Source of the DNA: Alphaproteobacteria bacterium
Lineage (GTDB): Bacteria; Pseudomonadota; Alphaproteobacteria; Bin95
Direction: 5' to 3'
NCBI GenBank assembly: GCA_022827685.1
Contig: JAJEIH010000014.1
Coordinates: forward strand, 67,801 to 131,800
Length of the DNA: 64,000 nucleotides
Shown piece after piece: positions 29,415 to 58,172 of this stretch. Under the pieces are notes generated by a model that did no database searches, was not told where the DNA came from, and worked only from the letters and a program-made list of their open reading frames with translations. Within the stretch, counting starts at the first letter, position 1. Every line of letters begins with the position of its first letter. Position numbers and translations under genes: made by a program.

Positions 29415-29489
29415 TGGAGCGGGAGACGAGATTTGAACTCGCGACCCTCACGTTGGCAACGTGATGCTCTACCTCTGAGCTACTCCCGC
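29415..29489 (-). tRNA. tRNA-Gly (anticodon GCC)
   Basis: On the minus strand the 75-nt sequence begins GCGGGAGTAGCTCAG and ends CTCCCGCTCCA. The acceptor stem GCGGGAG pairs with CTCCCGC. The D-arm has AGAGGTAGAGC, the anticodon stem TCACG/CGTGA encloses the loop TTGCCAA with anticodon GCC (29455-29457), and the T-loop reads GTTCAAATC. CCA is encoded at 29417-29415. Confidence 0.97.
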
Positions 29490-41203: not shown

Positions 41204-43422
<2,219 letters not shown>

Positions 43423-43540
43423 TCACCGATTTCACAACGGGCGCGGACCGGCCGCCCGGCGTGTGCGGCGAGCATTGACCTTATTCGGCTCCGAACTGGC
43501 GGTCAACGGGTTTGTTCATAAAATTTTGAAATATTTCTTA

Positions 43541-43990
43541 GAAAATCCTTGAAGCTTGTTGGTTGATTGCTATATGGAGCAGGGCAGGAAGCGGCATCCG
43601 CGGACCGCTTCCCACTCGTGCCGGCCCGGTGCGGAACGACCCCGATTCAGCCGACAGGCGAAGTGCGTCTTGTGCTTGCCTCGCGCGCGGGCAATCAGGC
43701 GCGCGAGCCGCGCCGCCGCGAAACGCGCGCTGGCGCGCGCACAGGCGCCCGCGCAGGATACGCGCGAATCAGGGTCCCGCCGGTCCGGGAAGCCGGGCGG
43801 CCGGAAGAACGGAACGAAGACGGATCGGGAGGACAAACCCATGCCGAACACGCAAGACGGGGGGACAGGATGGAATATCCAGGATGCTGTCCAGGACGGC
43901 GGCCCGTATGCCCGAACGGGCTGCCGGACATACGCCATGCGCATGCAGATCATGACATCGCATGACGGAACATGACATTTCATGACACTT
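43541..43990 (+). repeat. Two-copy intergenic element, copy 1 (promoter, hairpin, GC-rich core, iterons)
   Basis: This fills most of the gap between aatA and the MetE-like gene. In order on +: a promoter-like pair TTGAAG (43549) and TATATG (43571); a perfect 8-bp hairpin GGAAGCGG/CCGCTTCC (43587-43612) with loop CATCCGCGGA; a GC-rich core at 43681-43829 that contains CCGG-GAAG-CCGG hairpins; GCATGCAGA; then four CATGAC units at exactly 10-base steps (43951, 43961, 43971, 43981). The same order of parts occurs on the minus strand at 56440-55621. Reading frames exist in several phases, but no ribosome site or codon bias singles one out. Confidence 0.75.
43549..43576 (+). promoter_or_regulatory. 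Promoter-like pair at the head of element copy 1
   Basis: TTGAAG (43549-43554), 16-base spacer, TATATG (43571-43576), at the end of an AT-rich run that begins near 43510. The equivalent position in copy 2 also carries TTGACC and TATTAT on the minus strand, so the pair is preserved although the surrounding bases differ. It would start an RNA at about 43583 running through the element toward the MetE-like gene. Confidence 0.5.
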
Positions 43991-44035
43991 GCAGTGGAGT
44001 GGGCTCGTTGCGGGGTTCGAAAAGGAGGAAGCGGA

Positions 44036-45076
44036 ATGGATTTGCCGACAATGGGTGTGGGGTCCTACGCGGCGCCGGGCTGGCTGTTCCTGTTCCGGGA
44101 GGCCATGCGCGCGGGCCGGACCGGCGCCGAGGACGTCGAGGAAGCCTTTGACGACGCCACCCGCATCGCGATTGCCGACCAGATCGAAGCGGGCGTGGAC
44201 ATTCTGTCCGACGGCGAACTCCGCCGGAGTCGGTTCGTCTATGAGATGTATGACCGGCTGACCGGGATCGAGCGGGTTCCCGCCGGCCGGCGGCTCGGCG
44301 TGCCGGGCTATGACCGCGCGCCCCATTTCACCGCCAGGGAACGGTTGGCGGCGCCCGACGGACTCGGCATCGCGGCCGAATTCCGCCGCCTCAGGGAGCT
44401 GGCGCCGGGCAGGCGGCTCAAGGTTGCGTTTCCCGGTCCGCTTACCTTCATGCCGAAGATCGCGCCCGAAGGCCCCTATGGCGGCGACGCGGCGGCGCTA
44501 CTCGACGACATTGCCGGCATTGTGAGGGATGAACTCGACAGGCTCGCCGGCGAAGACGCGGAGCTCGTCCAGATCGACGAGCCGGGTTTTACCGACCTCT
44601 CGCACGGCCTGGACAGCAGGGCCTGCGCCGAAGCGATAAACACCGCCATCGCCGGCCATGCGGACCGTGTCGCGGTTCATGTCTGCTTCGGCAACAATGC
44701 GTCCCGCCCCTATTCGCCGCGCGGTTTCGCCCGCCTGCTGCCGGGCATGGCCATGCTGGACTGCTCGATGCTGGTGCTGGAATTCGCCAACCGGGAAATG
44801 GCGGACCTCGACACATTGCCGGCTTTGGCCGAGCGCTTCCGGATCGCGGCCGGCGTGATCGATGTGAAGTCGTTCCACATTGAAACGCCCGGGGAAGTGG
44901 CCGCGCGGCTCGAGAGGGTGCTGGAGGCGGTGCCGCGGGATCGCCTCTGGGTTACGGCCGATTGCGGCTTCTCGGCGCTGCCCCGCTGGCTGGCGCGGGA
45001 AAAGCTGCGTGCGATGGTCGCAGGAACCCGCCTCCTGCGGGGCGAAGTCGCGGATCAGGCCCAGCCGGAGAGATAG
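44036..45076 (+). CDS. MetE-type cobalamin-independent methyltransferase domain protein
   Basis: A 346-residue protein corresponding to the C-terminal (catalytic) barrel of cobalamin-independent methionine synthase, without the N-terminal half of full MetE. The zinc ligands are visible as H215-x-C217 (VAVHVCFGN) and C310 (VTADCGFS). QIDEP is at 179-183 and the substrate loop SDGELRRSRF at 58-67. Such short forms may methylate homocysteine from a non-folate donor or act on other thiols. AAAAGGAGG precedes the ATG at 44036. It lies 46 bases after the iterons of the upstream element. Confidence 0.8.
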   Translation: MDLPTMGVGSYAAPGWLFLFREAMRAGRTGAEDVEEAFDDATRIAIADQIEAGVDILSDGELRRSRFVYEMYDRLTGIERVPAGRRLGVPGYDRAPHFTARERLAAPDGLGIAAEFRRLRELAPGRRLKVAFPGPLTFMPKIAPEGPYGGDAAALLDDIAGIVRDELDRLAGEDAELVQIDEPGFTDLSHGLDSRACAEAINTAIAGHADRVAVHVCFGNNASRPYSPRGFARLLPGMAMLDCSMLVLEFANREMADLDTLPALAERFRIAAGVIDVKSFHIETPGEVAARLERVLEAVPRDRLWVTADCGFSALPRWLAREKLRAMVAGTRLLRGEVADQAQPER

Positions 45077-45828
45077 ATGACCTGGAACGTCGCCGTCTGC
45101 CGGGCGGTGTATTGCGAGGCGAGTTCGGCGAACAGCGCGCGGCGCGCGAAATGGCGGGGCCGCGCCGCCAGCGCATTGGTCTCGCCCATCGCGCGGAGGT
45201 CGGCCATCAGCTTGAAGGGCGACTCGTAAGTGACCCGGATGGTGTCCAGATCGGCGACCGGCAGCTCGAATCCGGCGCGCTGCAGCAGCCCGGCGGCGTC
45301 GCGCAGGTCCGCGAAAGGGGAAACCCGGGGCGCCGCGCCGCCGGACGCAGCGGCGTCGGCGGCGAGCAGGCCCTGGCGCAGCTCGGTCAGCGTTTCGCCG
45401 CCGAAAAGGCTTGCGAGGAAGAGGCCGCCGGGCCTGAGCGCGCGCTTTATCTGGGCGAGCGCGCCCGGAAGGTCCTGGGTCCAGTGCAGGGCGAGATTGC
45501 TTGCAATCAGGTGGAAGCTCCCGGCCGCGAAGGGCAGGTTGTCTTCCTCGCCGACGGCGCCGACGCCGCCCCCGGCGCGGCAAAGCGCCTCCGAGGCCTC
45601 CAGGCGGATGAGGGTCTCGATGCCGCCGCGCCCGCGCAGCGCGCGCGCCAGCACCCCGTCGCGCGCGCCGATATCGAGCGCGAGCGGGAAGCTGACGGTC
45701 ACATCGTCGAGGCGGTCAGCCAGCCGCTCCGCCACCTCGCGAAACAGGAAATCCGCGCCGGGGGGCGCAGCGGCGGCGCGGTCGCGGTGGCGGCGAAGGG
45801 CGCCCCGGTCGAAGAGTTGCGGTATCAT
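45055..45828 (-). CDS. SAM-dependent methyltransferase-fold protein (BioC/NDUFAF5-like)
   Basis: A 257-residue class I methyltransferase-fold protein. The SAM-binding strand reads ALDIGARDG, then EEDNLPFAAGSFHLIASNLALHWTQDLPGAL and ALRPGGLFLASLFGG. The opening MIPQLFDRGALRRHRDRAA and LHWTQDLPG are typical of the mitochondrial NDUFAF5 / bacterial BioC-like group; NDUFAF5 itself is an arginine hydroxylase for complex I. The start at 45828 is divergent from the rhodanese gene, 30 bases away. Its 3' end overlaps the MetE-like gene by 22 bases. Confidence 0.8.
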   Translation of the reverse strand: MIPQLFDRGALRRHRDRAAAAPPGADFLFREVAERLADRLDDVTVSFPLALDIGARDGVLARALRGRGGIETLIRLEASEALCRAGGGVGAVGEEDNLPFAAGSFHLIASNLALHWTQDLPGALAQIKRALRPGGLFLASLFGGETLTELRQGLLAADAAASGGAAPRVSPFADLRDAAGLLQRAGFELPVADLDTIRVTYESPFKLMADLRAMGETNALAARPRHFARRALFAELASQYTARQTATFQVIYLSGWA

Positions 45829-45858
45829 CGAAGCCCCGCTGCGCCGGAAGGAAGCCCC

Positions 45859-47391
45859 ATGAACGAGAACTATAGCGCGATCTCGGCCGAAGCGTTGCGC
45901 GAGGCACTGGAGGGAGAGGACGAACTGGCCATCATCGACTTTCGCGAGGAAGGCTCGTTCGCGCCGGCGCATCTGCTGCATGCCTGCAATGTCCCGCTCT
46001 CCCGGCTGGAGCTCGAAATCCGCGGCCTCGTGCCCCGTGCGGGGACCCGGATCGTCGCCACCGACAATGGCGAGGGACTGGCCGGGCGCGGCGCGGCGCG
46101 GCTTCGCGAGCTCGGCTACACCAATGTCGTCCTGTTCGCGAACGGCGTCGAAGCCTGGCGGCGGGCGGGCTACGAGGTCTTCTCCGGATTCAACGTGCCG
46201 AGCAAGGCGTTCGGCGAATATGTCGAGCACGCCTATGACACGCCGTCGGTTTCTGCCGACGAACTCAAGGAAATGCTGGACGGCCCGGACCCGGTGGTCG
46301 TGCTGGACAGCCGGCCGATGGACGAATTCCGCAACATGAACATTCCGACCGGGACCTGCTGTCCGGGGGCGGAACTGGTCTATCGCGTCCACGATCTCGC
46401 GCCGTCTCCGGATACCACGGTGATCGTCAATTGCGCGGGGCGGACGCGCAGCATCATCGGGGCGCAATCGCTTATCAATGCGGGCATTCCGAACCGGGTG
46501 GCTGCCCTCAGGAACGGCACGATGGGCTGGCATCTGGCCGGCCTGCAACTGGAGCGCGGCAATGAGCGCCCGGCGCCGGAGCCGAGCGCGGCCGGGCTGG
46601 ACGCGGCGCGCGCCTGCGCCGCGGCGGTCGCGGCGCGTTTCGAGGTGCCGGTCGTGCGCGAAATCCGGCCCGCGCCGGAACGGACGACCTATATCTTCGA
46701 CGTGCGCCATCCGCACGAATTCGAGGCGGGGCATCTCAAGGGCTCGCGTTCGGCGCCCGGCGGGCAGCTTGTGCAGGCGACCGACCGCTACGCGGCGGTG
46801 CGGGGCGCACGCATCTTCCTGGTGGACGACAACGGCGTTCGCGCCGCCATGACCGCGCACTGGCTGCGGCAGATGAACTGGGACGCGGCCGTGCTGGAAG
46901 GCGCGCTGGAGGGCGGCCCGCTGGAGACAGGGCCTGCCGCTCCCGACATTCCGGGTCTGGCCGATGTGCCGACGGTCGGCCCGGAGGCCGTCGAAGGCGC
47001 GGTCGTGGTCGATTTCGCCGACAGCCGCAGCTATGCCGAAGGCCATATACCGGGCGCATGGTTCGCGATCCGCTCGCGGCTTGCCTCGGCCCGCCTGCCG
47101 GACGCGGAACGCTATGTCTTCACCTCGCCGGACGGGCGGCTGGCGCATCTGGCCGCCGGCGATTTCGACCGCCCGGTCGCCGTGCTGGAGGGCGGCACGG
47201 AGGCATGGACCGGGCCGCTGGAAAGCGGCGCCCGGCATATGGCGGATACGGCCGACGACGTGTGGCTGAAGCCCTATGAGCAGGGCGGGACCGTCGAGGA
47301 GAACATGCAGGCCTATCTCGACTGGGAGACCGGCCTGGTGGAACAGCTGGACCGCGACGGCACGACGCGGTTCTGGAGCCGTCCCGCCTGA
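45859..47391 (+). CDS. Four-domain rhodanese-like sulfurtransferase
   Basis: A 510-residue soluble protein made of four rhodanese-like domains (about 1-110, 125-235, 255-365 and 375-470) and an acidic C-terminal tail. Only the second has an active-site cysteine: C192 in VNCAGRTRSIIG. The matching loops of the others read ATDNGEG, VDDNGVRA and TSPDGRLA, with Asp, Asp and Ser/Pro in place of cysteine. It likely moves sulfane sulfur from thiosulfate or a persulfide to an acceptor. GGAAGGAAG precedes the ATG. Genes for sulfur-donor partners are not adjacent. Confidence 0.85.
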   Translation: MNENYSAISAEALREALEGEDELAIIDFREEGSFAPAHLLHACNVPLSRLELEIRGLVPRAGTRIVATDNGEGLAGRGAARLRELGYTNVVLFANGVEAWRRAGYEVFSGFNVPSKAFGEYVEHAYDTPSVSADELKEMLDGPDPVVVLDSRPMDEFRNMNIPTGTCCPGAELVYRVHDLAPSPDTTVIVNCAGRTRSIIGAQSLINAGIPNRVAALRNGTMGWHLAGLQLERGNERPAPEPSAAGLDAARACAAAVAARFEVPVVREIRPAPERTTYIFDVRHPHEFEAGHLKGSRSAPGGQLVQATDRYAAVRGARIFLVDDNGVRAAMTAHWLRQMNWDAAVLEGALEGGPLETGPAAPDIPGLADVPTVGPEAVEGAVVVDFADSRSYAEGHIPGAWFAIRSRLASARLPDAERYVFTSPDGRLAHLAAGDFDRPVAVLEGGTEAWTGPLESGARHMADTADDVWLKPYEQGGTVEENMQAYLDWETGLVEQLDRDGTTRFWSRPA

Positions 47392-47400
47392 TCCCGGCCG

Positions 47401-48150
47401 GTGTTTCCCGGACCGGGGGCTGCGGCATTTGGGCGGCGGTTGCTGGACCTCGCGCTGCCGCCGCGCTGCGCCTTCTGCCGGGGCCCGGTCGCAGACCCGG
47501 CGACTCTCTGCGGGGCCTGCTGGTCGGACCTCGAGTTCATCGTCGAGCCGTTGTGCGACAGTTGCGGGCGGCCCTTCGCTTTCCAGGCGGAGGCCGGCTC
47601 GCTTTGCGGCGCGTGCATGGCGAAACACCCTGCCTATGACCGGGCAAGAAGCGCGCTGGTTTATGGCGGTAACGCAAGAAATCTCGTCCAGAACTTCAAG
47701 TTCCGGGACGAGACCGGCCTGGCGCCGCTGTTGTCGGCATGGGCGCGGGAAGCCGGCGCTGCGTTGCTGAAGGATGCGGACTGGATCGCCCCGGTGCCGC
47801 TTCACTGGATGCGGCTATACCAGCGGCGCTACAACCAGGCCGCGCTGCTGGCGGGACGGCTCGCCGCCGGAGGCGAAGCCGCCTTCGCTCCCGGCCTGTT
47901 GCGGCGCGTGAGGCGCACGCGCCCGCAAACGGAGCTCGGGCGCAACGAACGGGGGCGCAATGTCGCCGGCGCATTCCGCGTCGCGCCGGCCTGGCGGGAC
48001 CGGGTTCGCGGCGCGCGAATCGTCGTCGTGGACGATGTGTTGACGACCGGGGCGACGCTCGAGGCCTGCGCGCGGACCCTCAAGCGCGCCGGCGCGGCCC
48101 GTGTCGATGCCCTGACCGTGGCCCGTGTCGATAGCCCGGACCGGGTTTAG
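47401..48150 (+). CDS. comF: ComF-family phosphoribosyltransferase-like protein
   Basis: A 249-residue protein with an N-terminal double zinc-finger ([29 protein letters not shown]) and a type I phosphoribosyltransferase domain with the PRPP loop [12 protein letters not shown]. The [10 protein letters not shown] and [21 protein letters not shown] stretches are hallmarks of ComF/GntX, associated with DNA uptake or carbon use. GTG start, 9 bases after the rhodanese gene. Convergent with ndk (4-base overlap). Confidence 0.92.
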
Positions 48151-48569
48151 CCGACGACTTCGCAGGCGCTGAAGAAATAGGCGATCTCGCGCGCCGCGCT
48201 CTCGGGAGAGTCGGAGCCGTGGACGGAATTCGCCTCGATCGATTCGCCGTAGTCCTTGCGGATCGTGCCCTCGGCCGCATTGGCCGGGTTGGTGACGCCC
48301 ATGATCTCCCGATTGAGTTCGATGGCGCCCTCGCATTCCAGCACCTGCACTACGACGGGCCCCGAGGTCATGAAGGTGCAGAGATCGTCGAAAAAGGGCC
48401 GCTCGCTGTGCTCGGCGTAGAAGCCTTCCGCCTGCTCCCGCGTCAGCCGGATGCGCTTCTGGGCCACGACCCTGAGCCCGGCCTTCTCCAGCCGGGCGGT
48501 GATCTCTCCCGTCAGCTGGCGTCGGGTCGCGTCGGGCTTCACGATGGACAATGTGCGTTCGGTCGCCAC
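48147..48569 (-). CDS. ndk: Nucleoside diphosphate kinase
   Basis: A 140-residue enzyme that equilibrates NTP pools by phosphate transfer through H117 (NSVHGSDS). The opening [12 protein letters not shown] and the [15 protein letters not shown] segment are diagnostic. The GTG at 48569 has GGGAGGAG at an 8-base spacing and gives the standard length; the longer frame to 48728 does not look coding. Confidence 0.97.
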
Positions 48570-48636
48570 TTCAGGTCTCCTCCCCAGCATGGCGGGCGCG
48601 GCGTTATAGCCATGCCGCCTTGCCCGCACAACGGCG

Positions 48637-49089
48637 CTATTCGGACTGCGGCCAGCCCTGCGGCCCGAACCGCAGATATGCGGGCCGGCTTCCCTCGTCG
48701 CGGAATGCGGCAAACCGGTCGCGGGCAATGTCGCGCATTGCGGGGTCGCGCCGGTCGAACAGGTATGCGGTGCCGGCGAATCCCTCGCGTCCGTCCAGCG
48801 GCGCGTCGTCCACCAGGACGAGCAGGTCGGCCGCGTTGGGATTTCCGGGCGCCGCCGTCAGCCATACCGGATGCTCGGCGGGGTCGCCCTCGCATCCATG
48901 CGGCAGGAAGCTGTCATTGCGGTAGGTCCACAACCCCTGGTCGAGCGCCGCCACCCGTTCGTCCTGGCCGAGGCGGACGCAGACCCGCCGGCCCTCGGCC
49001 AGCGCAGCTTCCAGCAGCCGGCCGAGGCCGAGGTCCAGCGGCGCGCCGTCTAGGTCGTAGAAGACCGGCGGGTCAGCTTTCGCAGACAT
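48637..49089 (-). CDS. holC: DNA polymerase III chi subunit
   Basis: A 150-residue clamp-loader accessory that contacts SSB. The family pattern is present: [54 protein letters not shown] and [12 protein letters not shown]-like segments. Its start overlaps the 3' end of pepA by 17 bases, so the two are coupled; pepA-holC is a common pair in proteobacteria. Confidence 0.92.
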
Positions 49090-50530
49090 CCCGGACCAGC
49101 CGGTCGAGCAGGCGCACGCCGTAGCCCGTCGCTCCCTTTGGCACCGTCGGACGCGCCTTGTCGGTCCAGGCCGTGCCGGCGATGTCCAGGTGAGCCCAGG
49201 GCGTATCGCCGACGAAGCGCTTCAGGAACTGCGCCGCGGATATCGCGCCCGCCTCGCGTGGACCGATGTTCTTCATGTCGGCGATGTGGGACTCGAGCAT
49301 CTTGTCGTAGGCGTCATGGAGCGGAAACTGCCACAATTTTTCGTCCACGGCCGCGCCTGCCGACATCAGCGACTCTGCCAGCGCGTCGTTGTTGGAGAAC
49401 ATGCCGGCATATTCGTGGGCAAGCGCCATCACCATGGCGCCGGTGAGCGTTGCCAGATCGACCACGGCATGCGGTTCATATCGCTCGATGACATAGGCCA
49501 GCAGGTCCGCCAGGACGAGGCGGCCCTCAGCATCGGTGTTGATAACCTCGACGGTCTGTCCGGAGTAGCTCGTCACGACGTCGCCGGGCCGCTGGGCCGT
49601 CGCCGAAGGCATGTTTTCCACCAGGCCCACGATACCGACGACATTCGCGGCCGCCTTGCGCCCGGCTATGGCCTTCATGGCTCCGGCCACGGCGGCGGAT
49701 CCCCCCATGTCCCATTTCATCTCTTCCATGCCGCCGCTAGGCTTGATCGAGATGCCGCCGGTATCGAACGTGACGCCCTTGCCGACGAGGGCGATCGGCG
49801 GCTCCTCCCCGCCCTGCCAGCGCATGACGACGACCCGGGCCTCGCGCGCGCTTCCCTGCGCCACGCCCAGCAGTGTCGCCATTTTCAGGTCTTCAAGCGC
49901 CGCCTGGTCGAACACCTCCACGGAAACGCCGAGCGCCTCCAGTTCGCGAAGCCCGTCCGCATAGCTCTCCGGATAAAGGACATTGCCCGGCTCCGAGACG
50001 AAGTCGCGCGCGAAGGCAACGGCCTCGACAATCCTGGCGCCGTCCTGCTCGTAGGACCGGCGTGCTTCTTCGGCGTCCGGCGCCGCGACCACAAGTTCCG
50101 CGAGCGCCGGCTTGTCCTTGTCCTTCAGTGTCGTGCGGTATTTGTCGAACCGGTAGGCGGCAAGGGCTGCGCCGAGGCCGGCAGCGGCAGCGGAGCCGGT
50201 CTGCGGCCAGACCAGTGTCGCCGAACTGGAACCCGACCTGGCGAGCGCGGAATAGACGGTGCCGCCCACATCTTCAGCGAGCCGGGCATCCAGCTCCTCT
50301 CCGACACCGACGACCAGCACCCGCTCCGCGTCCAGGCCGAAAGGTGCCATCACCTCGATCGTGGCCTTCGCCTCGCCGTCGAAACGAGAAGCCGCCATCG
50401 CTTGCGAAAGGGCGCCGGATGCGGCGGCGTCCGCCTCGGCCGCCAGGCCATCCAGGGCCCCTCCCTTTGCAACTGTGAGCACCAGGGCTCCCGAGCGGGG
50501 CAGGGCGGGAGCGGCGAAAGAAACCTTCAT
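49073..50530 (-). CDS. pepA: Leucyl aminopeptidase
   Basis: A 485-residue M17 metallopeptidase that removes N-terminal residues from peptides. The two-metal site is in VGKGVTFDTGGISIKP, MKWDMGGSA and the signature NTDAEGRLVLADLLAY. The C-terminal PWAHLDIAGTAW is also typical. The ATG at 50530 has GAGGG 6 bases upstream; a second ATG at 50542 is possible. In some bacteria PepA also binds DNA. Divergent from lptF, 54 bases away. Confidence 0.95.
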   Translation of the reverse strand: MKVSFAAPALPRSGALVLTVAKGGALDGLAAEADAAASGALSQAMAASRFDGEAKATIEVMAPFGLDAERVLVVGVGEELDARLAEDVGGTVYSALARSGSSSATLVWPQTGSAAAAGLGAALAAYRFDKYRTTLKDKDKPALAELVVAAPDAEEARRSYEQDGARIVEAVAFARDFVSEPGNVLYPESYADGLRELEALGVSVEVFDQAALEDLKMATLLGVAQGSAREARVVVMRWQGGEEPPIALVGKGVTFDTGGISIKPSGGMEEMKWDMGGSAAVAGAMKAIAGRKAAANVVGIVGLVENMPSATAQRPGDVVTSYSGQTVEVINTDAEGRLVLADLLAYVIERYEPHAVVDLATLTGAMVMALAHEYAGMFSNNDALAESLMSAGAAVDEKLWQFPLHDAYDKMLESHIADMKNIGPREAGAISAAQFLKRFVGDTPWAHLDIAGTAWTDKARPTVPKGATGYGVRLLDRLVRDVCES

Positions 50531-50584
50531 CGTGACCCTCATGCGGCTTGTCTGATTTTCGGTAAAGCAGCATACAGGCACGCG

Positions 50585-51679
50585 ATGCGCCAGACCGATC
50601 TTTATGTCCTGCGGCGTTTGCTTGTCGCGCTCGGCGCCGCGGCCGGCGCTCTGGCCCCTCTGCTGCTGCTGGCGACAGCGCTGCGTTTCGTCGATGACAT
50701 CGTGGAACGCGGCATTGCCATCGAGATGTTCGCGGCGCTCGTGATGCTGGCGCTGCCGTATCTCGCGAGTGTGGGGCTGCCTTTGGCGCTGCTGATTTCC
50801 GTCCTGCTCGTCTATGTCCGGATGGCTTCCGACAGCGAGGTGATCGTGATGCGCGCGGCCGGCGTCAGCGACCTGCGTCTGGCGGCGCCCGCATTGCTGC
50901 TGGGACTGGTGGTGATGGGAATCGTCACCTGGAATGCGCTCGTGTTGGCGCCCGCCTCGGAGAGGGAGCTTCGAGACCTCCAGTCGATCCTGAGGGACCG
51001 TTTTTCGGTGCTGTTCGTCCGGCCGGGCGTCTTCCGGCAGATCGGCCGGGACATGACGCTGTTTGTCCAGGACGGCGTCGGCACCAGCGAGTATTCCGGA
51101 ATTCTGCTGCAGGACGACAGGAACCCCGACCGGCGCATAACCTACCTGGCCGAAAGGGGGACCGCGACGATAGCGGACGGCGTGCCGACGCTGGTCGCAT
51201 TCAATGGAAGCCGGCAGGAAATCGACCGAAAATCCGGCCGCCTGACCCTCATATATTTCGATCGCAACACGATTGAACTGAACTTGCCGGCCATTCCGAA
51301 GAGGTCGCGCAGCCGGCGGGAGCGGAGTTTGGGCGAGCTTCTGAATCCGTCCGTCGAAGAGGTCGGACAAGCAAATGTCGCGAAGCACAAGGCGGAGGGG
51401 CATTTTCGACTCGCCAGCGGCCTTATGCCCGGCGCCGTGACCGCCGTCGCGCTTGCATGCCTGCTTTTGGGGGGCATAAATCGCCGCGGCCAGTCCTTCA
51501 GGCCGGCCCTGGCTGGCGCGCTTGCCTTCGGCCTTCTTGTGGGAGCTTTCGCAGTGAAGGCGGCGGTGGCGAAGCTGCCGGCGCTTGCGGGCCTCCAATA
51601 TGCGATCGGGGCGGTGCCTATCCTGGTCGGGTTCGCGCTCCTGGCAATGGGCGGTCGCCGCCGTCCGCTGCCCGTCTGA
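50585..51679 (+). CDS. lptF: Lipopolysaccharide export permease LptF
   Basis: A 364-residue inner-membrane permease of the LptBFGC lipopolysaccharide extractor. It has helices at the N-terminus (LLVALGAAAGALAPLLLLATALRFVDD) and C-terminus and a periplasmic beta-jellyroll between them (residues about 130-240). VMRAAGVSD is the coupling-helix region contacting LptB. It starts the lptF-lptG-surA-like-pdxA-rsmA run and is divergent from pepA. Confidence 0.93.
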   Translation: MRQTDLYVLRRLLVALGAAAGALAPLLLLATALRFVDDIVERGIAIEMFAALVMLALPYLASVGLPLALLISVLLVYVRMASDSEVIVMRAAGVSDLRLAAPALLLGLVVMGIVTWNALVLAPASERELRDLQSILRDRFSVLFVRPGVFRQIGRDMTLFVQDGVGTSEYSGILLQDDRNPDRRITYLAERGTATIADGVPTLVAFNGSRQEIDRKSGRLTLIYFDRNTIELNLPAIPKRSRSRRERSLGELLNPSVEEVGQANVAKHKAEGHFRLASGLMPGAVTAVALACLLLGGINRRGQSFRPALAGALAFGLLVGAFAVKAAVAKLPALAGLQYAIGAVPILVGFALLAMGGRRRPLPV

Positions 51680-51696
51680 AGAGAGGCGCGGCGAGA

Positions 51697-52788
51697 ATGG
51701 GACAATTCGGAGTGCTCTCCCGTTATCTGGCCCGGCGGTTTTTCCTGTGGGTCTGCATCGTGCTGGTCGTATTGGCTGCCCTCGTCTGGCTGATCGGCAT
51801 GATTGAGCTGTTGCGCCGGTCCGGGTCCAGAGACGAAGCGACGTTTGGAATCGTGCTGGAGATGGCGGCGCTGGAATTGCCGGCAATGCTTGAACTCCTG
51901 CTGCCGTTCGCAGTGCTCTTCGGCGCCTTGTTCGCGTTCGACCGTCTTGGACGGCACAACGAATTGACGGCTGCGCACGGGGCCGGCGTCTCGGTCTGGA
52001 AGGTATTGTTGCCGGCGCTGGCGGTCGCATTCGTGCTGGGCGCGGGAGCGGTGGTGTTTTACGGCCCGCTTGCAGCGGCCGCCCAGGGGCGCTTCGATCG
52101 GCTTGAGGCGCGGTATTTCGGCAGCGCCGCTCCCGTGTCGTCGATTTCCCAATCCGGACTCTGGCTGCGGGAAGTCGATGACGGGGACCTGACCATTCTG
52201 TTTGCCGACCGGGTCGACAAGGAACGCATTCTGCACGATGTCGTGGTCTATCGTTTCGAGGGGCTGCGCCACTTCCGCAACCGCCTGGATGCCGGCTCGG
52301 CGGAATTGCGCGATGGATACTGGTTCCTGAAGGGCGTTTGGGACGCCGGCTCCGGCGGTGCGCCTGCCCGCCGGGTTGCGGAGAGGATTCCTACAACGCT
52401 CAGCTGGGAGCATATCGAAGACGGTCTGACAGGCCCGGCGACCATGTCGGTCTGGAGATTGCCGGCATATATCGAAGCGCTGGAGGAGGCGGGCTTTCAG
52501 GCGCGAAAGCACCGGCTCCGGTTTCATGCCCTGCTCGCGTCCGTCGTCCTGACTGCGGCGATGCTCCTGATCGGGGCGGCGGTCTCGATCCGGTCGCGGC
52601 GGCGCGGCGGGACAGCCGTAATGCTCTCCGCCGGCGTCGGGGCCGGTTTCCTGCTGTTTATCCTGTCGGATGTCGTGTTTGCGCTTGGCCTGTCGGGGCG
52701 GGCGCCGGTCGTGCTGGCGGCCTGGACGCCGGCAGCGGCGGCGGTGATGCTGGGCTGCGCTGCGCTCTTGCATCTGGAGGACGGCTAA
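51697..52788 (+). CDS. lptG: Lipopolysaccharide export permease LptG
   Basis: A 363-residue partner of LptF with the same helix/jellyroll/helix plan. Its opening is LSRYLARRFFLWVCIVLVVLAALVWLIGMIELLRRS, a textbook LptG start. RLGRHNELTAAHGAGVSVW is the LptB-coupling segment, and the last helices hold GAGFLLFILSDVV. The ATG at 51697 is 17 bases after lptF. The two form the transmembrane channel of the LPS exporter. Confidence 0.93.
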   Translation: MGQFGVLSRYLARRFFLWVCIVLVVLAALVWLIGMIELLRRSGSRDEATFGIVLEMAALELPAMLELLLPFAVLFGALFAFDRLGRHNELTAAHGAGVSVWKVLLPALAVAFVLGAGAVVFYGPLAAAAQGRFDRLEARYFGSAAPVSSISQSGLWLREVDDGDLTILFADRVDKERILHDVVVYRFEGLRHFRNRLDAGSAELRDGYWFLKGVWDAGSGGAPARRVAERIPTTLSWEHIEDGLTGPATMSVWRLPAYIEALEEAGFQARKHRLRFHALLASVVLTAAMLLIGAAVSIRSRRRGGTAVMLSAGVGAGFLLFILSDVVFALGLSGRAPVVLAAWTPAAAAVMLGCAALLHLEDG

Positions 52789-52829
52789 CGGCATAACTGC
52801 AACTGCCGAGACAGACGGAAACGGCGAAG

Positions 52830-53780
52830 ATGCGTAGCGTGTGCCTGCGGTTTGTTTTCTTGTTCTGCGGTCTGGCCGCCTGCAGTGTTGCCCAGGCCCA
52901 GCAGGCCGGTCGGATTGTCGCGGTCGTCAACGACGACATCATCACCCGATACGACGTGATTGCCCGGCTGGGCATCGCGTTGTCCTCCTCTAATGTCCGG
53001 GACACTCCGGAGATTCGCCGCCGGCTCGGATCCCAGATTCTGCGAACCCTTATGGATGAACGCCTGCAAAGCCAGGAAGCGGGGCGGCTCGGGGTCCGCG
53101 TGAGCGAACGCGAGATCGGGCGGCAGATCGAGAACATCGAGAAGCGCAACAATCTTCCGCCCGGAGGACTGGTCCAATTCTTCCGCAACAACAGGCTCGA
53201 TTTCGAGGCGCTGAAGGAGCATCTGCGGGTAGAGGCCGCCTGGAACACGGTCGTGGCCCGGCGGATCGCGCCGCGCATCGAGGTCGGAGCGGGCGAGATC
53301 GATGCGCGCCTTGCGGAACGGCGCGCCGCCGCCGGATCCACGGAATATGTCGCTTCGGAAATCTTCCTCGAGCTGGACGACCCGGCAAGGGAAAGCGAGG
53401 TCCGCGCCGCAGCGGACGGGATCGTGGCGCAATTGCGCGCCGGCGCCTCCTTTGACGGGCTGGCCAGACAGTTCTCGCAATCCTCTTCCGCGGCTATCGG
53501 CGGCGACCTCGGGCGGGTGCGGGCCGGGCAGCTCGACGCCCGTCTGGAGGCCGCGCTCGACGCCCTGACCCCAAATGGCGTTTCTGCCCCGGTTCGCCTT
53601 GAGGACGGGTTCTACATCCTCCTGCTTCGTGAGCGGAGCGTCGTCGAGAGCGCGGCGGGCGAAGACGCCACGGAACGGGCCGGTATTGAGCGGCGGTTGC
53701 GCGTGGAGCGCATCAGCCGGCGGGCTGACCGCTATTTGCAGGACCTGCGCCGGTCTGCACTGATATTTCGCCGGAGATGA
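52830..53780 (+). CDS. surA: SurA-like periplasmic chaperone / peptidyl-prolyl isomerase
   Basis: A 316-residue exported protein: signal peptide 1-23 (FLFCGLAACSVAQAQ), SurA N-terminal chaperone segment (AVVNDDIITRYDV), LMDERLQSQEA, then one parvulin-type PPIase domain (ASFDGLARQFSQSSSAAIGGDLGRVRAGQLD). E. coli SurA has two parvulin domains; one is usual in alphaproteobacteria. It assists outer-membrane protein assembly. It follows lptG, sharing the LPS/OMP biogenesis theme, and has the conserved surA-pdxA-rsmA order. Confidence 0.9.
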   Translation: MRSVCLRFVFLFCGLAACSVAQAQQAGRIVAVVNDDIITRYDVIARLGIALSSSNVRDTPEIRRRLGSQILRTLMDERLQSQEAGRLGVRVSEREIGRQIENIEKRNNLPPGGLVQFFRNNRLDFEALKEHLRVEAAWNTVVARRIAPRIEVGAGEIDARLAERRAAAGSTEYVASEIFLELDDPARESEVRAAADGIVAQLRAGASFDGLARQFSQSSSAAIGGDLGRVRAGQLDARLEAALDALTPNGVSAPVRLEDGFYILLLRERSVVESAAGEDATERAGIERRLRVERISRRADRYLQDLRRSALIFRRR

Positions 53781-53784
53781 CCCC

Positions 53785-54759
53785 TTGCAGCCGCTCGCGC
53801 TGACCATGGGCGAACCGGGCGGCGTCGGCGGAGAGCTTGCGCTCAAGGCCTGGGCTGCGCCCGGTGTTCCGGCCTTCTTCTTGGCAGGCGATCCTGGGTG
53901 GCTGGCCCGGATAGATCCCGCTGCTCCCGTCCGCGAGATAAGGCGCCCCGGCGAGGCCGCGCAGATATTTCCGGATGCCTTGCCGGTGCTGCCCCTGCCG
54001 CTTACGGCGCCGGTCAGGCCGGGAACGGCCGACCCCGCGCATGCGCCCGCGGTTGTCGCTTCCATCGAGCGGGCGGTGGCGGCGGTTCGCGCAGGCGAGG
54101 CTTCGGCGGTTGTCACGCTACCGGTCCAGAAGGAAAGCCTGATAAGCGCCGGCTTCGCCCATCCGGGCCACACCGAGTTCCTGGCCGAGCTTACCGGCGC
54201 CCGGCGCCCGGTCATGATGCTGGTCGGCAAGCACCTCCGAACGGTTCCGATGACCGTGCATATTCCGCTTTCGGAGGTCGCGGGCCGGCTGACGGCAACC
54301 CTTGTCGAAGACACGGCGCGCATCGTCGCGCACGACCTGCGGGCCGATTTCGGCATTGCCGCGCCGCGGCTCGCGCTGGCGGGGCTGAACCCCCATGCCG
54401 GGGAGGGCGGGGCACTGGGGCTGGAAGAGGACGCGATCATGGCTCCGGCTGCGGCCAGGCTCCGCCAGGAAGGATTCGACATTCGAGGACCGCTCCCGGC
54501 GGACACGCTCTTCCATGCTGAAGCGCGAGCCCGGTATGACGCCGCGCTTTGCCCCTATCACGACCAGGCGCTGATTCCGGTGAAGATGCTCGATTTTCAT
54601 AATGCGGTGAACGTCACGCTCGGCCTGCCGATCGTGCGGACCTCGCCCGACCACGGAACGGCGCTCGACATTGCCGGCGCCGGCCGCGCGCGGCCCGACA
54701 GCCTGATTGCGGCCCTGAAACTGGCCGGCCAGATGGCAGAGCGCCGGCAAGGTGTCTGA
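53785..54759 (+). CDS. pdxA: 4-hydroxythreonine-4-phosphate dehydrogenase
   Basis: A 324-residue enzyme of the DXP-dependent vitamin B6 pathway. Motifs are PLALTMGEPGGVGGELALKAW, GHTEFLAELTG with a metal His, LNPHAGEGGALGLEE, YDAALCPYHDQALIPVKML and RTSPDHGTALDIAG. The TTG at 53785 is preceded by CGGAGA at 8 bases and lies 4 bases after the SurA-like gene. It overlaps rsmA by 8 bases. Confidence 0.95.
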   Translation: MQPLALTMGEPGGVGGELALKAWAAPGVPAFFLAGDPGWLARIDPAAPVREIRRPGEAAQIFPDALPVLPLPLTAPVRPGTADPAHAPAVVASIERAVAAVRAGEASAVVTLPVQKESLISAGFAHPGHTEFLAELTGARRPVMMLVGKHLRTVPMTVHIPLSEVAGRLTATLVEDTARIVAHDLRADFGIAAPRLALAGLNPHAGEGGALGLEEDAIMAPAAARLRQEGFDIRGPLPADTLFHAEARARYDAALCPYHDQALIPVKMLDFHNAVNVTLGLPIVRTSPDHGTALDIAGAGRARPDSLIAALKLAGQMAERRQGV

Positions 54760-55567
54760 CGGCAAGCTGCCGCGCCCGCAGGACCTGATCCGCCGGTACG
54801 GACTGGGCGCCCGCCGCGCGCTTGGCCAGCATTTCCTGCTCGATCCCGGCATTGCCGACCGCATCGCCCGTGCGGCGGGTCCTCTGGAGGGACGGACGGC
54901 GGTCGAGATCGGGCCCGGACCCGGCGGCCTCACGCGCGCGCTGCTGGAGGCCGGCGCCGAACGGATCGTTGCAGTCGAGCGTGACGCCCGCTGCGTGGAG
55001 GCGCTCGCGGAACTGGCGGCGGCCGGCGAGGGACGGCTTCGGGTGCTGGCCGCCGACGCGCTTGAGGTGGACCTTGCCGCGCTCGGCCCCGCGCCGATCA
55101 AGGTCGTCGCCAATCTGCCATACAACATCGCAACGCCCCTGCTGGTCGGCTGGCTGCGACGCCCGGACGGTATCGAATCCATGACGCTGATGTTCCAGAA
55201 GGAGGTGGCCGACCGGCTGCTGGCATTGCCGGGCAGCAGGGCGCGGGGACGGCTCTCGGTTCTCGCGCAATGGCGCGCCGAAGTCCGCCACTGTTTCGAT
55301 TTGCCGCCCGGCGCTTTCACGCCGCCGCCGAAAGTCTCCTCCAGCGTGGTTGCGCTGACGCCGCGCCTTTCGCCGGTCCCGGCGCATCCGGGCGACCTGG
55401 AGACGGTCACGGCCCGCGCTTTCGGAGGACGGCGGAAGATGCTCCGGCGCACGCTCGGCGACCTGCCCGCCCGCGCAGGACTGGACGGAACCATGCGCCC
55501 CGAGGAGCTGACGGTGGACGACTTCTGCGCGCTTGCGGTGGCGCTGCGGGATACGGACCCCCAATAG
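54752..55567 (+). CDS. rsmA: 16S rRNA dimethyladenosine transferase (KsgA)
   Basis: A 271-residue methyltransferase that dimethylates A1518 and A1519 in 16S rRNA. It has ALGQHFLLDPGIADRI, the SAM-binding VEIGPGPGGLT, the catalytic NLPYNIATP and FQKEVADRLLA. The C-terminal helical domain has FTPPPKVSSSVV. GTG start inside pdxA (8-base overlap). It is the last gene of the envelope operon, followed by a repeat-rich gap. Confidence 0.96.
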   Translation: MSDGKLPRPQDLIRRYGLGARRALGQHFLLDPGIADRIARAAGPLEGRTAVEIGPGPGGLTRALLEAGAERIVAVERDARCVEALAELAAAGEGRLRVLAADALEVDLAALGPAPIKVVANLPYNIATPLLVGWLRRPDGIESMTLMFQKEVADRLLALPGSRARGRLSVLAQWRAEVRHCFDLPPGAFTPPPKVSSSVVALTPRLSPVPAHPGDLETVTARAFGGRRKMLRRTLGDLPARAGLDGTMRPEELTVDDFCALAVALRDTDPQ

Positions 55568-55820
55568 CGCCGCCGCATTCTGGCCTCGCGTTCGCCGCCG
55601 GAAAGGGAACACCCATCGAACACGTCATGCGATGTCATGTTTTGTCATGCGGGCCCGGCGGGACCCCCTGCGATGTGTCATGGAATGTCATGTTCTGCAT
55701 GCGCACGGTGCATATCCTGTGGTCCGTTCAGGCATGGCCTCAGGCCCTCTTGCTCCCTCCTTCGCCTGGCTGGCGCATGATCGGTTCGGGTTGAAACGGT
55801 GCCGAATGCGCAATCCCGAT

Positions 55821-55966
55821 TGTCACCCCGGACGGAGCGCAGCGGAGATCCGGGGTCCAGGGCGTCGAGGTTGCTGTCCGGTTGCGCCGCCAGTGCTGGG
55901 CCCCGGCTCGGGGGCCGGGGCGACAATTTCGGACCTGTCCCGGAATACGGTCCGGTCGGAACGGAT
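55821..55966 (-). repeat. Interspersed repeat, copy B (inside element copy 2)
   Basis: The minus-strand sequence has the same ordered blocks as 22443-22612: ATCCGTTCCG, a GTCCGAAA block, GTCGCCCCGGCC, GAGCCGGGGCCC, CTGGACCCCGGAT and GTCCGGGGTGACA. The central part between the CCGGGG blocks differs, while the ends agree. Its position inside the second copy of the larger element suggests it inserted there after that element had duplicated. Confidence 0.68.
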
Positions 55967-56412
55967 TCTTCGCTAAAGAAGGCTCGTCCTGGACATCGAC
56001 CCGAGGGCGAGCCGGGGCGACGAAGGGGACGCGCCGTCCGGAGCCGCCGAAGATATGTGCATACGGCAGCCTGCAGGCGGGAGAGGAGGGTCCGCGCGTC
56101 CTGCCGGTCTCCCAGAAGCCGTATCCATCTGCGTCCCGCATGTTGTTCACTCACCCCGTTTCGTTCCACTCCGTCTCGTTCTTCCCGCCGCCCGGCTTCC
56201 CGGAGCGGCGGGACCCTGTTTCGCGCGTATCCTGCGCGGGTGCCTGCGTGCGCGCCGGCGCGCGTTTCGCGGCGGCGCGGTTCGCGCGCCTGATTGCGCG
56301 CGCGAGACGCAGGGCGCACCTCTCCCGTGCGTTTCTCAGGGTTTTTTTCGCGCCGGCGCGAATGGCGAAACGAAGCGGCTCCGCGGATGCCGCCTCTCTC
56401 CTCCTGCTACCT

Positions 56413-56439
56413 ATAATAGCACAGAATTTCTCAGGTCAA
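56413..56439 (-). promoter_or_regulatory. Promoter-like pair at the head of element copy 2
   Basis: On the minus strand TTGACC (56439-56434), 15-base spacer, TATTAT (56418-56413), in an AT-rich run. Position relative to the downstream hairpin equals that in copy 1. The short spacer makes it weaker than consensus. Transcription would run toward the 3' end of rsmA, away from the acyl-CoA ligase gene. Confidence 0.42.
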
Positions 56440-56546
56440 GTATCTAATCAAGAATTATTTCTTGAACAGAAATCGGGATGCGGTGCAACCGCCCGGGATA
56501 TCAGCCCCGGGGCGCTCCAGGGTGACGAAGGGAACCGCGCCGCCGT

Positions 56547-58172
56547 TCAGTCCAGGTCGCGCGCCCGTTCGCGGAGGACGAATTTCTGCACTTTTCCGGT
56601 GGAGGTCTTGGGCAGGGGGCCGAACACGACATGGCGCGGGGCCTTGAAACGGGCCATGTTGTCCCGGCAGAAGGCAATGACCTCCGCTTCCGTCGGCTCG
56701 GCGCCCGACAGCGGCTCGACGAACGCGCAGGGGATCTCGCCCCATTTTTCGTCCGGCCTGGCCACGACCGCGGCTTCGAGCACCGCCGGGTGCCGGTACA
56801 GGACCTGCTCCACCTCGACGGACGAGATGTTCTCCCCGCCGGAAATGATGATGTCCTTCGACCGGTCCTTGAGCGCGATATAGCCGTCCTCGTGCATGAC
56901 GCCGAGATCGCCGGTGTGGAACCAGCCGCCGGCGAATGCCTCCGCGCTCGCGTCCTCGTTCTTCAGGTAGCCCTTCATGACGACATTGCCGCGCATCATC
57001 ACCTCGCCGATGGTCTCGCCGTCGCGCGGGGTTTCGGTCATCGTCGCGGGGTCCATCACCGTCAGGCCCTCGAGAACCGGATAACGCACACCCTGCCGCG
57101 CCTTCATCGCCGCGCGTTCGGCGCCGGGCAGTGCGTCCCAGTCCCTGTTCCAGGCCGAGACCACGGCGGGGCCGTAGCATTCCGTCAGGCCGTAGGTGTG
57201 GGTGATGTCGAAGCCCATCGCCTCCATGCCCTCGAGCGTCGAGGGCGGCGGCGGCGCGGCCGCAGTCATCACCTGGACGCGGTGGGCGAAGCTCCGGCGT
57301 TCGTCCTCCGGCGCATGCAGCAGCATGTTGAGCACGATCGGCGCGCCGCAGAAATGCGTCACGCCCTCGGCCGCAATCGCGTCGAAAATTCCTTTGGCCT
57401 CCACGCGCCGGAGGCAGACATGCGTGCCGGCCTGGGCGGTGATCGTCCAGGGGAAACACCAGCCGTTGCAATGGAACATCGGCAGCGTCCAGAGATAGAC
57501 CGGATGGAGTTGCATCTGCCACGCCATCGTGTTTCCGGTCGCGTTCAGCCAGGCGCCGCGATGGTGATAGACCACGCCCTTCGGATTGCCTGTCGTGCCG
57601 GAGGTATAGTTCAGCGAGATCGCGTCCCACTCGTCCGCCGGCGGCGCGTATGCGAAGCCGGGGTCGCCTTCGGCCAGAAACGCTTCGTAGTCGAGGCTGC
57701 CGATCCGGTCTCCCGGCCCGTCATATTCCGGATCGTCGATATCGACGGTCAGGATGTCCCGCCCGAGTTCGGCGAGCGCCTGCCGGACCGTACCCGAGAA
57801 CTCCCGGTCAACCAGAACGGCCTTCGCCTCGCCATGTGCCAGCATGAAGGCGATGGACGCCGCGTCGAGGCGGATATTCAGTGTGTTCAGCACGGCGCCC
57901 GTCATGGGTACGCCGAAATGGCATTCCAGCATCTCCGGCGTGTTTGCGGCCATGACGGCCACGGTATCGCCCTTGCCGATGCCGCGCCGGGCAAGCGCGC
58001 CTGCCAGCCTGTGGCAGCGTTCGCGCGTCTCTTTCCAGGTGAACCGGCGCGTTCCATGCACGACCGACGGATGCTCCGGGAACACCCAGGCGGTGCGTTG
58101 CAGGAATGAGAGCGGCGTCAGCGGCTCGTAATTGGCGCTCTGCCGGTCCAGGCCCCGGTCATAGGCGCTCAT
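56547..58172 (-). CDS. Acyl-CoA synthetase (AMP-binding; DmdB/medium-chain type)
   Basis: A 541-residue adenylate-forming ligase that activates a carboxylic acid to its CoA thioester. The P-loop is LNYTSGTTGNPKGVVYHH, and the adenylation signatures are THTYGLTECYGP, GWFHTGDLGVMHEDGYIALKDRSKD and IIISGGENISSVEVE. The catalytic lysine lies in the C-terminal TSTGKVQKF. The LNTLNIRLDAASIAFML opening resembles the DmdB (3-methylmercaptopropionyl-CoA ligase) and plant AAE group, but other acids are possible. It is 7 bases after rpsU on the same strand. Confidence 0.88.
   Translation of the reverse strand: MSAYDRGLDRQSANYEPLTPLSFLQRTAWVFPEHPSVVHGTRRFTWKETRERCHRLAGALARRGIGKGDTVAVMAANTPEMLECHFGVPMTGAVLNTLNIRLDAASIAFMLAHGEAKAVLVDREFSGTVRQALAELGRDILTVDIDDPEYDGPGDRIGSLDYEAFLAEGDPGFAYAPPADEWDAISLNYTSGTTGNPKGVVYHHRGAWLNATGNTMAWQMQLHPVYLWTLPMFHCNGWCFPWTITAQAGTHVCLRRVEAKGIFDAIAAEGVTHFCGAPIVLNMLLHAPEDERRSFAHRVQVMTAAAPPPPSTLEGMEAMGFDITHTYGLTECYGPAVVSAWNRDWDALPGAERAAMKARQGVRYPVLEGLTVMDPATMTETPRDGETIGEVMMRGNVVMKGYLKNEDASAEAFAGGWFHTGDLGVMHEDGYIALKDRSKDIIISGGENISSVEVEQVLYRHPAVLEAAVVARPDEKWGEIPCAFVEPLSGAEPTEAEVIAFCRDNMARFKAPRHVVFGPLPKTSTGKVQKFVLRERARDLD

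Follow-up and report, generated by a model that had tools for sequence, protein, structure and literature searches.

The window analysed here, a 64,000-nt stretch of an alphaproteobacterial contig, contains two intergenic blocks assembled from the same parts, raising the question of what kind of element they represent. The first-pass annotation had described them as a two-copy element that might be either a non-coding RNA or a mobile or protein-binding element. Both blocks lie where it placed them, each with a promoter, a hairpin, a GC-rich core and iterons in the same order.

The two blocks and their repeat family

The features of the two blocks and their neighbours are as follows.

~42133-43335, - strand: class I/II aminotransferase gene, neighbour of copy 1
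43505..44010, + strand: copy 1, gene-less (type B); outer ends approximate
43511..43537, + strand: copy 1 conserved 5' box, TTTGTTC-N10-GAAATATTTC, directly 5' of the promoter
43549..43576, + strand: copy 1 sigma-70-like promoter, predicted from sequence (-35 TTGAAG, 43549-43554; -10 TATATG, 43571-43576)
43587..43612, + strand: copy 1 first hairpin, GGAAGCGG..CCGCTTCC
43653..43778, + strand: copy 1 GC-rich conserved non-coding core (model R1), with the nearly invariant GGCAATCAGGCGCRCGARCCGCGCC
43841..43975, + strand: copy 1 short ORF, 44 aa, with a Shine-Dalgarno-like GGGAGGA ahead of it
43951..43987, + strand: copy 1 iterons, four CATGAC[AG] at 10-bp spacing (starts 43951, 43961, 43971, 43981)
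44036 (start), + strand: MetE-like gene, neighbour of copy 1
54752-55567, + strand: rsmA, neighbour of copy 2
55605..56475, - strand: copy 2, gene-less, with ~370 bp of extra sequence inside; outer ends approximate
55607..55621, - strand: copy 2 GTTC-N7-GTTC, the alphaproteobacterial LexA-box form, directly 3' of the last iteron
55623..55692, - strand: copy 2 iterons, five CATGAC[AG] (starts 55692, 55682, 55649, 55639, 55629)
56210..56328, - strand: copy 2 GC-rich core, found as a match to the core model
56412..56439, - strand: copy 2 promoter (-35 TTGACC, -10 TATTAT)
56547-58172, - strand: AMP-binding (acyl-CoA synthetase-like) gene, neighbour of copy 2

The extents first given for the blocks needed some adjustment: copy 1 (~500 bp, ending near 44006) starts slightly earlier, with the box at 43511-43537, and copy 2 (~870 bp) reaches ~55605 because its five iterons (55692-55623) come after the ~370 bp of extra sequence. 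This extra sequence, between core and iterons (window 55760-56130, - strand), includes a palindromic GTCGCCCCGGCCCCCGAGCCGGGGCC-type repeat. The two copies align well through the core, and the core model matched the window at 43653-43778 (+ strand, E 7e-26) and 56210-56328 (- strand, E 4.6e-28), with nothing of comparable strength elsewhere. Rfam models matched the window at a TPP riboswitch (RF00059, 30716-30825, + strand, 68.5 bits) and a tRNA (29418-29489, - strand), and at no other place.

The description of the element as two-copy did not survive a search of its own genome (4.3 Mb, 167 contigs), which holds at least 98 copies at E<=1e-5; this is a lower bound, since 150 of 11290 candidates were scored. 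Six of seven congeners also carry the element, with 115, 86, 79, 71, 62 and 29 copies at the same threshold, and the seventh, G001, has none. G001 is 100% complete and contains a single CATGACA pair; the family has therefore been lost from it or was never gained. Many contigs terminate within an element, as expected because repeats break assemblies.

We drew the anatomy of the element from copies taken out of seven genomes. It begins with an AT-rich box (TTTGTTC, ~10 bp, GAAATAATTC), and nearly all copies read out have the same box as copy 1 (TTTGTTC-N10-GAAATATTTC). The box is followed by a TTGACA/TATAAT-like promoter pair that is kept across copies, by the first hairpin, and by a GC-rich leader of ~250 nt that holds the nearly invariant GGCAATCAGGCGCRCGARCCGCGCC. 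The leader is followed by a ribosome-binding site with a start codon, then by a centre that varies between copies, and finally by CATGACA iterons spaced 10 bp apart. These iterons are, as originally claimed, a genuine feature: 30 own-genome elements contain 114 CATGAC where their flanks predict 6.5, and adjacent iterons mostly lie exactly 10 bp apart.

Copies differ in the centre. Several copies, which we refer to as type A, have a gene of 323-344 aa directly after the leader, giving a full-length element of ~1.3 kb with one gene; the protein, which resembles a small terminase (TerS; see below), starts MPIIDPAxALSTRQEAFCRHYAVSGNAA and ends ...HDIA, ...HDKT or ...HDIS at the iterons. The gene is found, for instance, at L101:1586-2566 and L034:73-1053. 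In type B, the window's kind and the commonest, the centre is reduced to a short ORF of 31-58 aa in most cases, with its stop codon inside the iterons; in copy 1 this ORF occupies the position of the TerS-like gene start in full-length copies. Pooled pN/pS for the short ORFs is 0.86, with no sign of selection on the peptide, so that no protein is evident in type B and the idea of a conserved peptide there is unsupported. Type C, found in congeners, has a different gene within the same element ends:

L152:441-1004, - strand: type C gene, 187 aa, MTATDPRPELAAMLLERLAPAAEAL..; also at L164:2562 onward and in L166, L176 and L218

The L152 protein matched no family over the Pfam cut-off and gave a weak match to PHROG 31793 (unknown function). 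Some elements (L033, L036, L090, L135 and L136) retain the gene start and the ...HDIS-type end and have lost the middle. Because these deletion derivatives keep both gene start and gene end, the best reading of type B is that it is the gene-less form of the element; judging from these sequences, every type B copy probably derives from type A. At two loci, a sequence that by eye resembles the start of a group II intron (GTGxGGGGGTAGCGGG) lies directly 3' of the iterons (L176, ~2950; L209, ~1300). For the element itself, we considered a group II intron because its conserved GTGCG is reminiscent of an intron 5' end, and rejected it because domain V, a maturase and an Rfam match are all lacking.

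Structure and coding potential of the leader

We considered whether the repeat could be an RNA-gene family, with the leader forming a structured non-coding RNA that acts in trans or as a leader. There are ~100 copies, the promoter is conserved, the GC-rich core is strongly so, and the indel pattern is that of non-coding sequence. The earlier view that the blocks lack one clear reading frame holds for the leader: its indels do not come in lengths divisible by three, and many copies have stops in all frames, so we discarded a coding leader. The leader is probably transcribed. Copy 2 folds well, with a z-score of -3.64, but copy 1, at -0.81, does not, and the mean z-score is -1.75 for the transcribed strand versus -2.01 for the complement. 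The complement thus folds as strongly, which is what inverted repeats in DNA would give.

Comparative evidence for base-pairing is similarly slight. The hairpin ahead of the core is real and present in most copies with a varying sequence, and 88.5% of its cells are paired, but covariation is weak and conserved pairing at the RNA level lacks statistical support. For a hand-made structure of the leader, 85.1% of cells are paired versus 84.3% in shuffles, and changes on both sides of a pair exceed the shuffles by cell count, not by pair count, so that covariation is hardly above that of shuffles; RNAalifold, applied to an alignment of 64 leaders, returned 15 pairs, mostly invariant. The covariance-model search was negative within the element, with no Rfam match at gathering score and a best chance match of E 0.9. 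Lastly, distant members of the family have no leader (see below). A structured RNA is possible, and the RNA half of the original proposal is undecided; as an explanation of the repeat itself, we consider an RNA-gene family very improbable.

The TerS-like protein and CATGACA repeats

The product of the type A gene matches Pfam Terminase_2 (3.8e-12) and also PHROG 51 (small terminase). AlphaFold models it as a confident helix-turn-helix and a long helix, followed by a disordered acidic tail, and Foldseek ranks first the SF6 small-terminase DNA-binding domain (0.8 A over 50 residues, 42% identity); as no other part of the model aligns, its E-value when taken whole is weak (0.039). The N-terminal part of the protein has a dN/dS of 0.14-0.24 within the genus, indicating purifying selection. 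In its DNA-binding domain the protein is thus like the small terminases of SPP1/SF6-type phages (Pfam Terminase_2, PHROG 51), both by sequence and by model; unlike them, it appears to be an orphan, and it has a long, acidic, low-complexity C-terminus that ends in the iterons. The small terminase of the Rhodobacter capsulatus gene transfer agent (GTA) may also be among the nearest known proteins (PMC6854486). The protein looks like an orphan because its own genome gave no match to the large terminase phrog_2 (one family) or to the HK97-type capsid (PF05065). We found no transposase, integrase or nuclease domain in the element, Terminase_2 being the only match of its gene. A search of IMG/VR found no close relative; the protein had three weak matches, all confined to the DNA-binding domain, and the core pattern had none, and on these grounds we rejected a phage origin.

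To ask how widely the protein occurs, its N-terminus from the window's own genome was scanned against one genome per species (84,980 genomes). Relatives with at least 55% identity over long stretches are all from Alphaproteobacteria, and some record names suggest sponges (Spongia_Bin9). The distant carriers are Rhodospirillaceae bin65, Spongia_Bin9, CO36386bin_9 and isolate p16x44bins.53, with 2-7 TerS-like matches each. CATGACA-N3-CATGACA pairs number 53-259 in seven carriers of the window's own genus and 44-56 in the four distant carriers. By contrast, genomes without the gene have one pair (G001) or none (G008, G009, G010, G014 and G017); G009 and G014 are counted among these because their TerS match is weak, with ~30% identity. 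The pairs are therefore abundant in 11/11 tested carriers of the TerS-like gene and essentially absent from 6/6 non-carriers, and the reversed pattern is absent from 17/17 genomes. The own-genus carriers are not independent of one another, making the four distant carriers the better evidence. This co-occurrence, and the position of the iterons at the end of the gene, suggest that the TerS-like protein binds the CATGACA iterons. We found no earlier description of such a pairing: literature searches on orphan TerS repeats, intergenic repeats of sponge symbionts, domesticated terminases and sponge-symbiont MITEs returned nothing relevant.

In the distant carriers, the TerS-like gene has a promoter and a short 5' region without the GC-rich leader; the shared core of the family is therefore the terminase gene, the promoter and the iterons, and the leader is, in the genomes compared, confined to the window's genus. 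In place of the leader, several of these distant members have a LexA-type box over the promoter. GAAC-N7-GAAC overlaps the promoter in 6/9 distant TerS-like copies when scored strictly, with two more as GAAC-N7-GAAT, and in 7/16 distant gene-less copies, as TTGAC..GAACATTATATGAAC. GTTC-N7-GTTC is the form bound by alphaproteobacterial LexA (PMC3323433; PMC8565304). The boxes lie at promoters of TerS-like genes and of many gene-less iteron elements, at L111, L112, L120, L122, L123, L126, L136-L138 and L241-L256. In the carriers represented by L241-L256 there are composite repeats, in which REP-like palindromes (ccgtcatttcgaccgg..ggtcgaaatgacgg, ccccggac..gatccgggg) and iteron arrays take turns. 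No LexA box was found in promoters of the window's genus. Within 204 kb of own loci there are five LexA-form motifs, four of them directly after an element's last iteron, including that of window copy 2; these four may be one inherited sequence.

These features raise the possibility of an SOS-controlled packaging parasite, in which the TerS-like protein and the iterons would serve as a portable packaging signal, redirecting the packaging motor of an infecting phage or GTA to chromosomal DNA bearing the element. The TerS fold of the protein, the iterons at the terS-gene end and the GAAC-N7-GAAC motifs over distant promoters would all suit this idea, since phage packaging sites are often within or beside terS. 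There is also a precedent, in that the TerS of SaPI directs packaging of its own element (PMC6092414). Nonetheless, we judge a packaging parasite to be distinctly unlikely: phrog_2 and HK97-type capsid matches are missing from the own genome, IMG/VR holds no close relative, the promoters of the window's genus lack the LexA box, and packaging alone would not explain new insertion sites.

Mobility, known systems and a proposed mechanism

The clearest sign of mobility is an empty site. The element at L028 (contig C90 of G000) is absent from G002, G003 and G005, in which the flanking genes abut; both flanks are collinear at 88-90% identity, the inserted segment is ~555-575 bp, and ~20 bp at the junction of the empty site have diverged. 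This is the only clean empty site found. An earlier candidate (G003 L099 versus G000 L025) turned out to reflect a rearrangement that breaks synteny. The promoter side of the aminotransferase gene also varies: G003 and G005 lack an element there, whereas G002 has one of type B and G004 one of type C. Direct-repeat flanks, suggested initially as a mark of a mobile element, did not appear: 49 copies have no target-site duplication of at least 5 bp at a consistent offset, and since the ends are not base-exact a shorter one could be missed. By eye, the ends (5' TTTGTTC.., 3' ..CATGACA) have no evident inverted repeats.

According to simple codon-usage gene calls, the 37 own copies examined are intergenic, except for L044, which was flagged as spanned, and slight overlaps with gene ends. 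Copy 1 lies just 5' of the MetE-like gene and in the same direction, as a cis-regulatory 5' leader for downstream host genes would. However, the next gene is co-oriented with the element in 16 cases and opposite in 9, which is close to random, the downstream gene differs from copy to copy, and G005 has the same MetE-like gene without the element. Orientation and neighbour data thus largely refute a cis-regulatory leader, which we regard as extremely improbable.

Recombination between element copies reshapes the chromosome. The 11.5 kb between the two inverted copies of the window (44006-55537) is inverted in G004 (L257): there the opposite end of the block meets the AMP-binding side, and element copies lie at each of the two joints. 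As G005 and G001 have the aminotransferase on the same side as in the window, it was probably G004 in which the block turned round.

The mobile or protein-binding half of the original proposal is thus supported, by the high copy number, the site that is empty in three congeners, the gene-deleted derivatives, and iterons that track the gene for a DNA-binding protein. We propose that the window blocks probably belong, as members lacking the gene, to a dispersed family of mobile repeats whose cognate TerS-like protein works in trans. A full-length member would be one transcription unit consisting of the AT-rich box, promoter, leader, TerS-like gene and terminal CATGACA iterons. The element would insert between genes and accumulate internal deletions that spare both ends, so that most copies would be non-autonomous, like the two in the window. 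TerS-like protein made from full-length copies would bind in trans to the CATGACA iterons of every copy. The bound protein might bring in a DNA-cutting enzyme, from the host or from elsewhere, to copy or move the element, or might regulate the element. We infer that the protein helps the element to spread, be mobilised or be maintained. As a more speculative extension, which we think unlikely, the family would represent a transposase-less class of mobile element in which an orphan small terminase and its iterons spread themselves, partly under SOS (LexA-type) control and possibly by borrowing the packaging motor of a phage or GTA.

The element shares features with several known systems. REPs are high-copy intergenic repeats accompanied by a low-copy gene, and their recognition and spread are attributed to its product (PMC8266576). 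The logic of a high-copy repeat with a low-copy cognate gene is the same in the element as in REPs and the REP transposase (REPtron, TnpA-REP; PMC8266576), but the REPtron protein is an HuH transposase rather than a TerS-like DNA-binding protein, and a REP is a short palindrome whereas the element measures ~300-1300 bp and contains direct iterons and a promoter. Palindromic REP units with an HuH transposase were not found; the element's gene is Terminase_2 and its iterons are direct. The element also resembles phage-inducible chromosomal islands (SaPI/PICI), which likewise have their own TerS homologue: sequence and model both point to a TerS DNA-binding domain in the element protein, and distant members have LexA-type boxes. 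Such an island is large, however, whereas the element is at most ~1.3 kb and present at ~100 copies per genome; its full-length form holds one gene and no integrase, replication, regulator or interference genes. Similarly, the partners expected for phage packaging, a large terminase (phrog_2) and a capsid (PF05065), were unmatched in the own genome. By the features tested, the element belongs neither to the REP/transposase systems nor to the TerS systems of phage satellites.

Bacterial MITEs provide the closest alternative. They are short, non-autonomous and intergenic, and are gene-deleted derivatives of a larger parent (PMC10969869), as the copies described here appear to be, and a site that is occupied or empty among relatives, typical of MITEs, was seen at L028 versus G002, G003 and G005. 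Like the element, MITEs, including Correia elements, can contain promoters. The repeat could therefore be an ordinary MITE-like passenger, with an unrelated IS transposase acting on its ends in trans and the TerS-like gene being cargo or a repressor. The different centres between the same ends (the TerS gene, the 187-aa type C gene or a short ORF) resemble cargo, and the copies are intergenic and numerous. On the other hand, terminal inverted repeats like those of MITEs were not evident by eye, no target-site duplication was found, the parent has no recognisable transposase, the TerS-like gene is under purifying selection, and the iterons track that gene even in distant, leaderless genera. We therefore consider a MITE-like passenger possible, if somewhat unlikely.

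The usual explanation of mobile repeats is a transposase that works on their ends; in this family, the one protein that can be recognised is a small-terminase-like DNA-binding protein. Such proteins are otherwise known from phage DNA packaging, and this one tracks an iteron with tens to hundreds of copies per genome. Should it mobilise or package these sites, phage packaging proteins would have a new way of becoming selfish elements, and genes might be transferred in a directed manner among sponge symbionts. Should it not, the repeats still make up a large and uncharted part of these genomes, one that contributes to their rearrangement.
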